From NCBI RefSeq assembly GCF_030734285.1, contig NZ_CP132294.1, forward strand, positions 3,410,001 through 3,474,000: DNA of 64,000 nt. The letters run 5' to 3'. The DNA is from Natronococcus sp. AD-5. Lineage in GTDB: Archaea; Halobacteriota; Halobacteria; Halobacteriales; Natrialbaceae. The notes beneath the pieces are model-generated. The model made no database searches. It was not told the origin of the DNA and worked only from the letters and a program-made list of their open reading frames with translations. A program made the position numbers and the translations under genes. Below are positions 47,837 to 52,901 of the stretch, one piece after another (positions within the stretch are counted from its first letter, which is position 1; each line of letters begins with the position of its first letter).

Positions 47837-49567
47837 TCAGTTCTCGAATCGGGCCTGCACGAACGGCTGGATGTCGTCGATGTTGCTCAGACGGGAGTCG
47901 CTCAGGAGGACGGCCTCGGTTTCGTCGATCGGAACCGAGAGGCTGATCTCCTTCGTCCGGCCGTATCGCCCCTTCGAGACGACCACGGCGTTGACGATGC
48001 CGAGCATGTCGAGTTCGCTGATGAGGTCGGTGACGCGCCGTTGCGTGAGGACGTCCGCGTCGATCTCCTCGCAGAGACGCTTGTAGATGTTGAACACCTC
48101 GCCGGTGTTGATGCTGTGGACGCCGTTCTTCTCGAGGAGGATGATCGCGAAGAGGACGAGTTTGCTCTGCGTCGGGAGGGTGCGGACGACCTCGACGACG
48201 CGGTCGAGTTCGATCTTGTCCTGGGCCTGCCGGACGTGCTCCTCGACGATCGTCTCGGCCTGCGACCGCTCCGCGAGCTCGCCCGCGGTCCGGAGGAGGT
48301 CGAGCGCGCGGCGCGCGTCCCCGTGTTCCTGTGCGGCGAAGGCCGCACACAGCGGGATCACGTCGCTCGAGAGCGCTCCGGCCTTGAACGCGACCTCCGA
48401 GCGGTGCTGGAGGATGTCGCGTAGCTGGTTCGCGTCGTACGGCGGGAAGACGATCTCCTCCTCGCCGAGGCTGGACTTGACGCGCGGATCCAGGAAGTCG
48501 GTGAACTTGAGGTCGTTCGAGATACCGATGATCGAGACGCGAGAGTTCTCGAGTTCGGAATTCATCCGGGAGAGGTTGTAGAGGGTGTCGTCGCCGCTCT
48601 TCTCGACCAGTTTGTCGATCTCGTCGAGCATGATGACGACGACGCGCTCGTCGTAGTCGACGGCGTCGAAGAAGACGCTGTAGACCCGGTCCGTCGGCCA
48701 CCCCGTCATCGGGACCTCCTCGAACGACTCCTTGTCCGCCTCGAGAGAGGCGATTCGCTCTTCGATCTCCGCGGCGGACGCAAACGGCGTCGATTCGAGG
48801 GGGTGTGCCGACGCCGACTCGCTCTCGGCCGGGTCGGATGAATACCCCCCTGTTTCTACTGCAGAACCGGGAGACGTGGCGCCTGTTTCGGTTGCAAACG
48901 AAACGTCGCTATCGTCCGTTTTTTCGTCGTCGGTGAGCGGGGCGTCTTCGGCGGATCGGCCGCGAGTGACGGCGGACTCGAACGGATCGTCGCTCGTCCC
49001 GTCGTCGGCCGGTGATCCGTCCCCGGACTGGGACGACGCCTCGGTCTCGTATCGCTCGACGGTCTCGAGGAGGTCCTCGAGGGAAGCGATATCCTCGTCG
49101 ATCCGCGCCTCGTTCTTCTCGATGAACTTGTTCGCGAGCTGTGCGAGGACGCGATACTGGGTGTCCGTGACCTCGCAGTTGATGTATTCGACGTCACAGG
49201 GAACGCTGTACTTCTGGGAGGTGCTCTCGAGCTCCTTACTGACGAACTTCGCGCTCGCGGTCTTTCCCGTCCCCGTCTTCCCGTAGATCAGGATGTTCGA
49301 CGGCGTCTCGCCGCGGAGCGCGGCGACGAGAATCGTCGCCATCTTGTTGATCTGGTCGTTTCGGTGCGGCAACTCGTGCGGCGTGTAGGAGGGACGGAGA
49401 ACCTCCTTGTTCTCGAAGATCGGCTCGCCGCTGAGCAGGTCGTCGAACAATCCCTGGTTCGGCTCGTCGTCACCGATCGCCGTTTCCTCGAGCGACGTCG
49501 AAAACCCGTGCGTTCCGTCGAGTTCGACCTCGTCCGCCCCCGGTGTCTCTGAGTTGTCATCTGACAT
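47837..49567 (-). CDS. orc1: Orc1/Cdc6 replication initiator (origin-linked)
   Basis: This 576-residue AAA+ protein binds origin recognition boxes and recruits MCM. It has Walker A GKTGTGKT (96-103), Walker B VVIMLDEIDKL (about 310-320), sensor ISNDLKFTD and a C-terminal winged helix (RVTDLISELDMLG). It is longer than usual (about 400) because of a 130-residue acidic, Ser-rich insert (about 155-285) between the Walker motifs. An ORB-like DNA sequence encodes SAVETGGY in this insert. It lies directly beside the origin, and an ORB sits in its own promoter. Confidence 0.96.
   Translation of the reverse strand: MSDDNSETPGADEVELDGTHGFSTSLEETAIGDDEPNQGLFDDLLSGEPIFENKEVLRPSYTPHELPHRNDQINKMATILVAALRGETPSNILIYGKTGTGKTASAKFVSKELESTSQKYSVPCDVEYINCEVTDTQYRVLAQLANKFIEKNEARIDEDIASLEDLLETVERYETEASSQSGDGSPADDGTSDDPFESAVTRGRSAEDAPLTDDEKTDDSDVSFATETGATSPGSAVETGGYSSDPAESESASAHPLESTPFASAAEIEERIASLEADKESFEEVPMTGWPTDRVYSVFFDAVDYDERVVVIMLDEIDKLVEKSGDDTLYNLSRMNSELENSRVSIIGISNDLKFTDFLDPRVKSSLGEEEIVFPPYDANQLRDILQHRSEVAFKAGALSSDVIPLCAAFAAQEHGDARRALDLLRTAGELAERSQAETIVEEHVRQAQDKIELDRVVEVVRTLPTQSKLVLFAIILLEKNGVHSINTGEVFNIYKRLCEEIDADVLTQRRVTDLISELDMLGIVNAVVVSKGRYGRTKEISLSVPIDETEAVLLSDSRLSNIDDIQPFVQARFEN
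48843..48867 (-). other. ORB-like sequence inside the orc1 insert
   Basis: On the minus strand GCAGTAGAAACAGGGGGGTA (48862-48843) has the ORB core with a six-G run. It encodes SAVETGGY of the disordered insert. Confidence 0.45.
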
Positions 49568-50193: not shown

Positions 50194-50221
50194 CCCCCCA
50201 CCCCTTCGTTTCAGGTGGAAC
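50194..50221 (-). other. ORB element, left of the AT-rich core
   Basis: On the minus strand GTTCCACCTGAAACGAAGGG followed by GTGGGGGG. The inverted TTCCA...TGAAAC core and long G-string match haloarchaeal ORBs. A further G-rich block (50228-50250) follows on the plus strand. Confidence 0.8.
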
Positions 50222-50252
50222 GGGACGGAGAGGTGGGGTGGATGGGGTGTCT

Positions 50253-50388
50253 CTAGAACAGAAGGTTTTATGCTAGTAGGATAGAAACAATATCCGTAGC
50301 ACTAGCAGAATAGCGATCTTACTAGAGGAGTGTGTTTATATTACTAGTTACTACTAGGATTCTCTTTCTAGTGGACTCGAGTTACTAG
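50253..50388. other. AT-rich unwinding core with eight CTAG sites
   Basis: CTAG occurs at 50253, 50273, 50302, 50322, 50344, 50354, 50368 and 50385, several within TTACTAGTTA-like repeats. The stretch is by far the most AT-rich part of the origin and lies between two ORBs pointing outwards, so it is the likely DNA unwinding element. Confidence 0.8.
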
Positions 50389-50502
50389 TTCCGTCGTTTT
50401 CCCCGAATTCCCGGGGGAAACCGCTCGAAATCCCCGTTCGAGGCGAAACGGTGGTCCCTATCGGACCCGTCGGCGTCGAGTCCGCCCCGACACCGTCGTC
50501 GG

Positions 50503-50530
50503 TCTCCAGTTGAAACGATGGGGTGGGGGA
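50503..50530 (+). other. ORB element, right of the AT-rich core
   Basis: TCTCCAGTTGAAACGATGGG followed by GTGGGGGA is a plus-strand ORB, mirror to the one at 50194. Confidence 0.8.
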
Positions 50531-50836: not shown

Positions 50837-51475
50837 ATGGGACTGTTAACAGAACTCAAGGATAGTATTTCCCGGGTGACGGATCGGTTGTTTACCGACG
50901 AGGAACCCAAACGAATTGGTATCTACGGACCGCCCAACGCTGGAAAGACGACGCTCGCGAACCGGATCGCTCGCGACTGGACGGGCGACGCGGTCGGGAC
51001 GGAAAGTCACGTTCCACACGAAACGCGCCGTGCACGCAGAAAAGAGGGCGTCGAGATCGAGCGCAACGGGAAGTCGGTCTCGATCGATATCGTCGACACG
51101 CCCGGCGTAACGACGAAGGTCGATTACGAGGAGTTCACCGACGAGATGGAAGAGGAGGACGCGATCCGCCGGTCGCGCGAAGCGACCGAAGGGGTCGCCG
51201 AGGCGATGCACTGGCTCCGCGAGGACGTCGACGGCGTCATCTACGTACTTGACAGCGCGGAGGACCCGATCACGCAGGTCAACACGATGCTGATCGGAAT
51301 TATCGAGTCTCGCGATCTGCCGGTACTCATCTTCGCGAACAAGATCGACCTCGAGGAGTCGAGCGTCAAGCGGATCGAGGACGCGTTCCCGCAGCACAAG
51401 ACGGTGTCGTTGTCTGCAAAGGAAGGCGAAAACATGGACGAGGTCTACGACAACATCGCGCAGTACTTCGGGTGA
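50837..51475 (+). CDS. oapA: Origin-associated small GTPase OapA/ArvA (archaeal vesiculating GTPase)
   Basis: This 212-residue Era-like GTPase has Walker A GIYGPPNAGKTTLANRI (28-44), switch/DTPG (IDIVDTPGVTT) and NKID-type FANKIDLEES plus SLSAKEGEN. ATG 50837 follows GGAGGCCCAGG, a possible ribosome binding site. The protein was first named for its place beside oriC; its Haloferax homologue ArvA drives extracellular vesicle formation. It forms an operon with oapB and oapC. Confidence 0.92.
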   Translation: MGLLTELKDSISRVTDRLFTDEEPKRIGIYGPPNAGKTTLANRIARDWTGDAVGTESHVPHETRRARRKEGVEIERNGKSVSIDIVDTPGVTTKVDYEEFTDEMEEEDAIRRSREATEGVAEAMHWLREDVDGVIYVLDSAEDPITQVNTMLIGIIESRDLPVLIFANKIDLEESSVKRIEDAFPQHKTVSLSAKEGENMDEVYDNIAQYFG

Positions 51476-51480
51476 TCACG

Positions 51481-51882
51481 ATGCCGAAAGCAACTAACGC
51501 GGACGACTTGGACGGCCCGGACGGCGTACAAATCGACCTCATCAGCGGCGAGCGGATGGAGCGGATGGCCACGACGGAGAAGATCCGGATGATCCTCGAC
51601 GGTGTCCACGACGGCAACATCGTCATTCTCGAGGAGGGGCTTACTCCCGACGAGGAGAGCAAGCTCATCGAGATGACGATGGCCGAGATCAGTCCCGACG
51701 GCTTCAACGGGATCGAGATCGAGACGTATCCGAAGTCGGAGACGCGGGATTCGTCGCTGCTCGGCCGCATCATGGGGTCGAACGAGTCGACCGCGAAGCT
51801 GACGGTGATCGGACCGGCGAACCAGATCGAAACGCTTCACAAGGACGAAACGCTCATCAGCGCGCTGGTGTCCCGAAACTAA
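51481..51882 (+). CDS. oapB: OapB/ArvB (DUF2073) protein
   Basis: This 133-residue protein has the DUF2073 pattern: IDLISGERMERMATTEKIRM, GNIVILEEGLTPDEESKLIE and KLTVIGPANQIETLHKDETL. The ATG at 51481 lies six bases after the oapA stop; a GTG at 51472 overlapping the stop is an alternative. It is a partner of the vesicle GTPase; molecular role unknown. Confidence 0.9.
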   Translation: MPKATNADDLDGPDGVQIDLISGERMERMATTEKIRMILDGVHDGNIVILEEGLTPDEESKLIEMTMAEISPDGFNGIEIETYPKSETRDSSLLGRIMGSNESTAKLTVIGPANQIETLHKDETLISALVSRN

Positions 51883-52901
51883 TGCCGCACCAATGCACGA
51901 ACTGCGGCCGCACGTTCCCCGACGGCTCCAAGGAGATGCTCTCGGGCTGTCCCGACTGCGGCGGGAACAAGTTCCAGTTCGCGCCGAGTTCGGGTGCAAC
52001 AGCCGCTGGTGGCGCTTCCGAACCGAACGCCGGAGCCGGTGGAGAGCGAACGGGCGCGACCGAGCCGTCGGCTAGGGACGGTTCCGATCCGGACGCGGAC
52101 GGCGTCGCGTCTCGTGCTGCGGAGACGGTTCGTGGATGGGTCTCTTCGAATTCGACCGACGAATCGACCGGCGCGTCGACGGTGGATACCGGATCGACGT
52201 CGGCTGCTCCCGAGAACGCCGCACGCGCTCGTGAATCGGAGGTGCGCTCGTCCTCGAGCGAGACTCGGTCCGGTACGGATCCGACTGCCGAGGGCGACGG
52301 GTTTTCCGAGTGGCCGGATTCGGCCCGCCGCCCCGAAGACCGGTCATCCGGGGCTGAACAGTCGGAGACCGATCAGTCCGCGGCCGCACGATCTTCACCC
52401 GACGAGGCGACGGCCGCACAGTCCGTGACGGACGACCGGCCCGCTGCGGCGACGGACGTCGAGACGAACGCACACTCCGCCGACGTCCGGGAGGCGGGAA
52501 CCGACGCGCCGGCGGTCGAATCCGAGGACTCGGCACAGGCGAGCGCTCGAAGCGACGTCGTTCCGGCGGACGATCTCCCGACAAATGCGGGACAGGACGA
52601 CGATTCCGGTGCGGTCACCGACGTCGGCGGAACCACCGGAAGCGGCGCGGGCGGCGGGAGCGATCAGCCGCCGAACGACGGCCGGGTCGTCAGCGAGCCG
52701 ACGGGCGAACAGCCGTCGATCGAGGATCTCCGGGCGGAACTCAACGAGCAGTTCGAGAGCATCAAGATCGTTCGCCCGGGCCAGTACGAACTCAACCTCA
52801 TGGAGCTCTACAACCGCGACGAGTACATCATCTCGCTCCAGGAGGACGGCCGATACGTTATCGACGTCCCGGATTCGTGGCACGACAGCGGGGAGGAATA
52901 A
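51882..52901 (+). CDS. oapC: OapC/ArvC zinc-ribbon protein
   Basis: This 339-residue protein starts with a zinc ribbon (Cys5, Cys8, Cys23, Cys26 in QCTNCGR and GCPDCGG). Residues about 35-265 are a long disordered Ser/Asp/Glu-rich region. The C-terminal 70 residues (IEDLRAELNEQFESIKIVRP, YELNLMELYNRDEYIISLQE, GRYVIDVPDSW) form a conserved small domain. The ATG overlaps the oapB stop (TAATG). The disordered part varies between species. Confidence 0.9.
   Translation: MPHQCTNCGRTFPDGSKEMLSGCPDCGGNKFQFAPSSGATAAGGASEPNAGAGGERTGATEPSARDGSDPDADGVASRAAETVRGWVSSNSTDESTGASTVDTGSTSAAPENAARARESEVRSSSSETRSGTDPTAEGDGFSEWPDSARRPEDRSSGAEQSETDQSAAARSSPDEATAAQSVTDDRPAAATDVETNAHSADVREAGTDAPAVESEDSAQASARSDVVPADDLPTNAGQDDDSGAVTDVGGTTGSGAGGGSDQPPNDGRVVSEPTGEQPSIEDLRAELNEQFESIKIVRPGQYELNLMELYNRDEYIISLQEDGRYVIDVPDSWHDSGEE

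Follow-up and report, generated by a model that had tools for sequence, protein, structure and literature searches.

Eight CTAG tetranucleotides are packed into 136 bp of the AT-rich unwinding element of a predicted oriC1 in the window, i.e., the whole 64-kb stretch of Natronococcus DNA analyzed here. This array lies between two inverted ORBs, its sites bear the mark of selection on the motif, and it co-occurs with the gene for a CTAG methyltransferase (MTase). We consider that the array probably acts as a methylation-sensing element of oriC1, and place the probability of this reading at roughly 55%.

A CTAG array between inverted ORBs

The array extends over 50253..50388 (no strand), and a direct count placed the CTAG starts at 50253, 50273, 50302, 50322, 50344, 50354, 50368, and 50385, with spacings of 20, 29, 20, 22, 10, 14, and 17, exactly as in the preliminary description. 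That description had also reported a thin scatter of about twenty CTAGs in the rest of the window, where we counted 18, and an avoidance of the tetranucleotide, which was confirmed: CTAG is under-represented genome-wide, the figure for the window being 26 observed vs. 87 in whole-window dinucleotide shuffles. Within the intergenic region, GC content is lowest at the array (37.5% GC in its core vs. 65.9% for the window). When the segment 50230–50400 was shuffled in a way that preserves its AT-richness and dinucleotides, the mean was 2.3 CTAGs and the maximum was 7 (5000 trials), and a pattern search of the 5.17-Mb genome (two contigs) found CTAG triples with gaps of 3–33 bp at only four places. 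These two results rule out a chance origin of the array. The genome-wide rarity of CTAG would suit a by-product, in which another force (restriction, repair bias) purged the tetranucleotide elsewhere and the origin escaped, or in which the sites are relics. It speaks against this that AT-rich stretches elsewhere in the window hold no CTAG: in an equally AT-rich stretch at ~25.6–25.9 kb (38–45% GC), none was found.

On all the sequence criteria that the literature gives (PMC3528665), the locus is predicted to be oriC1. The array is located entirely between the two inverted ORBs, with orc1 on one side and oapABC on the other. The ORBs, each with a G-string, form the arms of a 44-nt inverted repeat around the AT-rich element. 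The left arm (50195..50238, −; ORB core 50196–50213, CCCCACCCCTTCGTTTCA) was identified by a repeat search and an ORB pattern match, and is kept across Natronococcus relatives; the right arm (50486..50529, +; ORB core 50511–50528, TGAAACGATGGGGTGGGG) was identified by repeat search, ORB pattern, and alignment. The adjoining orc1/cdc6 initiator gene (Orc1 of oriC1; 47837..49567, −), which is divergent from the oap genes and of the ORC1 type that all haloarchaea retain, matched NF001625, TIGR02928, Cdc6_C, and Cdc6_lid, and its product scored 653 bits, over the cut-off, against the NF001625 ORC1-type equivalog. On the other side, an Era-like GTPase gene (50837..51475, +; MMR_HSR1/Era-like matches), oapB (51481..51882, +; PF09846 OapB, 146.6 bits), and oapC (51882..52901, +; PF09845 OapC, 90.6 bits), encoding origin-associated proteins, stand in conserved order beside the origin. 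The GTPase gene is presumed to be oapA from the adjacent oapB and oapC; its homologues occur across the class, and most of those examined stand beside an ORB-bearing region.

Several features of these genes were observed in addition. The Orc1 protein (47837–49567) has an insertion of ~130 acidic low-complexity residues (about residues 150–280), which splits the profile match in two. In the oapA GTPase at L231:1498–2757 (−), an insert of somewhat less than 200 aa, in frame and with ends like those of inteins, interrupts the P-loop (GPPNAGK / C...VVHN / TT). The same interruption was seen as split matches in G110, G113, G115, G121, and G261, with a longer insert in G110, G113, G115, and G121, whose open frames are about 700 aa; this origin-associated protein thus seems to carry an intein. 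Many genomes of g33 (Halorubrum-like), including those of L155–L158, L161, L164, L165, L179, L184, L187, L190, and L199, have neither a low-GC region nor an Orc1 match in the 1.5 kb preceding the oapA GTPase gene, as though this gene had been relocated from oriC1. G094, a genome of the same genus as the window, has two oapA copies 3.9 Mb apart on one contig (C1:19499 and 3955791) that score equally against the query (identical E-values, 96% identity), which would reflect either an origin duplication or an assembly effect.

Elsewhere in the genome, four CTAGs occur in 35 bp at C1:987386–987420 (L113; L294:387–421); the start of a second orc/cdc6 gene lies ~0.8 kb downstream of them, at L294:1204. 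This place is possibly a second origin; a clear oriC1-type inverted ORB pair was not found at the cluster. The remaining two of the four places are triple-CTAG clusters: an intergenic one beside an aminotransferase-like gene (C1:1561034–1561102; L115), and another on the second contig, in AT-rich DNA (C2:470931–470969; L122), within tens of kb of which there was no orc match. A search for the array on plasmids gave no match.

CTAG density and the MTase gene across haloarchaeal origins

Origins were gathered via the neighboring GTPase, and comprised 80 named loci, 30 loci of the window's family, and 120 loci chosen by MTase status. The family code f1 is taken to correspond to Natrialbaceae and the genus code g33 to Halorubrum, as judged from the named loci and the published distribution, and several g33 loci whose GTPase gene is not next to a low-GC region were counted only if an inverted ORB pair was found. 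Between the ORBs, the CTAG density was 20.2 per kb (48 loci) and 19.7 per kb (28 loci) in two sets of Natrialbaceae that have some genomes in common, 14.7 per kb in other MTase-bearing families (27 loci), and 7.4 per kb in MTase-bearing members of f4 (25 loci). It was about 0.8–0.94 per kb in f4 genomes without the MTase (30 loci) and 0 in those with weak MTase matches only (4 loci). Outside the ORBs in the same regions, the density was 0.5–2 per kb. CTAG clusters thus occur at orthologous non-coding places upstream of the initiator gene in several genomes, and most MTase-bearing haloarchaea are enriched in CTAG at the oriC1 core and the MTase-lacking ones are not; the preliminary description had named enrichment in other cores as one of the points on which its proposal depended. 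In the 200-bp lowest-GC windows of 49 Natrialbaceae origins, there were 289 CTAGs vs. 34.9 expected from base composition (about 8-fold), and each of the seven remaining palindromes with that composition occurred 5–74 times in the same windows. The corresponding windows of f4 origins without the MTase held 4 CTAGs vs. 18.9 expected. Both the excess at the origin and the depletion there in MTase-lacking genomes count against the by-product explanation introduced above.

The preliminary description had offered the breathing of CTAG-rich DNA as an alternative to methylation, and this part did not hold. In relatives that lack the MTase, the unwinding element is as AT-rich as in the others, has more TA steps, and contains almost no CTAG: the lowest GC content of a 136-bp stretch between the ORBs was 0.377 in MTase-lacking f4 vs. 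0.385–0.405 in the others, and TA steps numbered 79 per kb vs. 66–77 per kb. With these AT-matched, TA-rich, CTAG-poor origins and the comparison to the seven palindromes, AT-richness or breathing was ruled out as the reason for the array, and an unwinding element can be AT-rich or flexible without CTAG. In a broader version of this idea, cytosine N4 methylation or the CTAG/TA steps would ease the opening of the unwinding element physically, with no reader protein. The array does sit where the GC content of the origin is lowest, and m4C generally weakens the C–G pair; m4C may thus affect melting directly. However, the CTAG/TA version meets the same MTase-lacking relatives, and in L255 six CTAGs are still present in an inter-ORB region of 61% GC. 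We regard a purely physical action as quite improbable.

The genome encodes one good PF01555 N4-type MTase (L111:1435–2493) with the motifs SPPY, which is typical of N4-cytosine enzymes, and DPFWGTG. Its specificity for CTAG is suggested by the SPPY motif, by the distribution of the family, and by published methylomes of relatives; in two Natrinema strains, 97–99% of CTAG is methylated (PMC6696651). No restriction enzyme was recognized in the few kb examined around the gene, and phage relatives of the MTase, with only <35% identity, were uninformative for specificity. Strong homologues occur across the class, and a match to the CTAG MTase family was found in 348 of the 391 sampled haloarchaeal genomes. 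The 43 genomes without a match all belong to g33 and other f4 genera; Halopenitus persicus lacks the MTase, and Haloferax larsenii has it. The absence in H. persicus agrees with the published distribution of HVO_0794, the CTAG enzyme, which this species also lacks (PMC5867850).

The presence of the cluster correlates with that of the MTase, the phylogenetic control being underpowered. In f4, origins of MTase-bearing genomes had a mean of 1.48 CTAGs vs. 0.18 in those with no or weak matches (Mann-Whitney p = 5e-7; p = 0.010 by genus), and among named species, mostly of other families, the means with and without the MTase were 2.06 and 0.20 (p = 0.005). A tree of the GTPase and OapB yielded only 2 supported independent pairs, with on average 1.6 concordant and 0.0 discordant. 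MTase losses are few and clustered, so the independent pairs were too few for significance, and a formal phylogenetic proof of dependence on the MTase failed. The exceptions run in one direction: Halorussus (L054, L072, L068, L075) and the MTase-bearing members of g33 have 0–1 CTAG between the ORBs, and no MTase-lacking genome was found with >1. In these sequences, the array tends to occur only where the genome encodes a CTAG N4-cytosine MTase.

Conservation, turnover, and helical register of the sites

Conservation was assessed by aligning 57 distinct inter-ORB sequences from Natrialbaceae, with weighted percentages. CTAG is kept at 50354 in 100%, at 50344 in 95%, at 50302 and 50385 in 81%, at 50322 in 68%, and at 50253 in 53% of these sequences; the sites at 50273 and 50368 are peculiar to the window's lineage (CTAG in 1–4%). 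Six of the eight sites are therefore single-motif conservation islands in otherwise variable DNA, with 1.21 bits in CTAG columns vs. 0.66 elsewhere and 50354 invariant. Several near-invariant positions in Natrialbaceae were also observed in the non-CTAG stretches 50264–50271 and 50284–50296, within GGTTTTAT and GAAACAATATCCG, accompanied by a small inverted repeat, GGATA...TATCC, at 50279–50295.

The origins of a Natronococcus subclade have 4–7 CTAGs at new places between conserved ORBs. In three of them (L002, L003, and L052), the inter-ORB identity to the window was 0.42–0.45 vs. 0.43–0.44 for shuffled sequences, and 4–6 CTAGs are present despite this shuffle-level identity; in a fourth (L008), the identity was 0.52. 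This subclade rules out the simple inheritance of one sequence. The number of CTAGs is retained while their position turns over, with sites being regained, and selection acts on the CTAG tetranucleotide itself; such selection fits a methylation target and argues against breathing. Sites that are conserved one by one and regained after turnover are also hard to reconcile with a by-product of CTAG avoidance, an explanation that is already largely refuted and that we consider highly improbable.

Beyond the tetranucleotide, Natrialbaceae sites prefer TTACTAGA. A universal longer motif was rejected, as TTACTAGA is limited to Natrialbaceae; outside this family, the longer motif is absent and only W-CTAG-W is common. 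At 10.4 bp per turn, the five best-conserved sites other than 50253, with spacings of 20, 22, 10, and 31 bp, all lie on the same side of the helix to about a tenth of a turn (p = 0.0015 in a simulation). Tight phasing was also seen in the extended array of Natrinema (21, 21, 21, 10, 31, 20; p = 0.0001), and all eight sites of the window together are only weakly phased (p = 0.024). This phasing represents one ancestral arrangement and not many independent ones. No helical register was found in other families; the phasing, strong in Natrialbaceae and absent elsewhere, was rejected as a universal feature. The register gives a hint that a protein may read the array from one side.

Such a protein could recognize CTAG in its own right, as a repressor or an origin-architecture factor at orc1/oapA or at the unwinding element, with methylation being incidental or only tuning its binding and with the factor having been lost together with the MTase. 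The preference for the longer motif in Natrialbaceae, the placement of the five best sites on one helical face as in an ordered protein array, and the case of Halorussus, which has the MTase without the array, all favor this explanation, as does the enrichment of CTAG upstream of transcription starts in one Haloferax (PMC11001535). However, the array tracks the MTase gene, and the other families have no helical register and share only W-CTAG-W, so that the common denominator is the recognition sequence of the MTase. We consider this explanation unlikely.

A proposed methylation-sensing element and its known counterparts

If the array is a methylation-sensing element, as we favor, a Zim-family MTase would keep its sites fully methylated, and the passage of the fork would render all of them hemimethylated at once. 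Hemimethylation would then alter the binding or opening of the origin, through access of Orc1/MCM or through a putative reader, until the MTase restored full methylation, and initiation would be spaced or timed in this way. The effect could have either direction, with hemimethylation blocking initiation or methylation licensing it. Methylation at the array, the hemimethylated interval, and its effect are parts of this model. A more specific version is an independently evolved counterpart of SeqA, in which a putative reader of hemimethylated m4C-TAG on the helically phased CTAG array would hold the fired oriC1 closed; we put this forward tentatively, and consider it rather doubtful. To our knowledge, no SeqA-like reader of hemimethylation is known in archaea.

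The role of the CTAG MTase family is an open question in the literature (PMC6471742). Two reports describe a viable Halobacterium strain without zim (PMC2816208) and Haloferax restriction-modification (RM) mutants that grow without a defect (PMC5867850); in the laboratory, the MTase is therefore dispensable. Natrialbaceae have the strongest array and Haloferax a weak one: Haloferax larsenii has only two CTAGs between the ORBs, which may make Haloferax ill-suited to the search for such a role, and its weak array may explain the missing oriC1 enrichment and growth phenotype in Haloferax work. The footprint described here singles out the sites to mutate and the organisms to use.

The Orc1-type initiator, the inverted ORBs with G-string, and the AT-rich unwinding element of haloarchaeal oriC1 in an earlier description (PMC3528665) are all present in the window; that description does not mention a CTAG array. 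CTAG clusters upstream of orc1/cdc6 in Haloarchaea, together with a conserved orphan m4C MTase, were reported by Blow et al. (2016; PMC4752239, Fig 6D), who found the clusters to correlate with this enzyme and suggested that they function in replication. The clusters and the idea of a methylation target, which the preliminary description also put forward, are therefore already known (PMC4752239). The motif, the gene neighborhood, the correlation with the MTase, and the proposed role are all the same in our data, and a second cluster near another orc gene was seen here too. The two studies differ in that the earlier one plotted motif density over 50 kb, whereas here the array was placed between inverted ORBs. 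New here are this placement at base resolution, the site-by-site footprint, the turnover with retained number, the helical phasing seen in Natrialbaceae, the negative control from origins of matched AT content, and a wider sampling of genomes without the MTase.

The closest likeness outside archaea is to oriC of Escherichia coli with GATC, Dam, and SeqA. In both, dense sites of an apparently orphan MTase lie in the origin and its unwinding element, and the sites of the array would likewise become hemimethylated at each firing. In contrast to E. coli, the haloarchaeal origin uses Orc1/MCM and m4C instead of m6A, CTAG is rare genome-wide in the haloarchaeon whereas GATC is not rare in E. coli, and the haloarchaeal CTAG MTase is dispensable. 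The present array strengthens, without proving, the suggestion made in 2016 that DNA methylation times replication in archaea in the way known from E. coli. If this is true, methylation would control the initiation of replication in archaea as in enterobacteria, convergently, with a different base, a different motif, and a different initiator.
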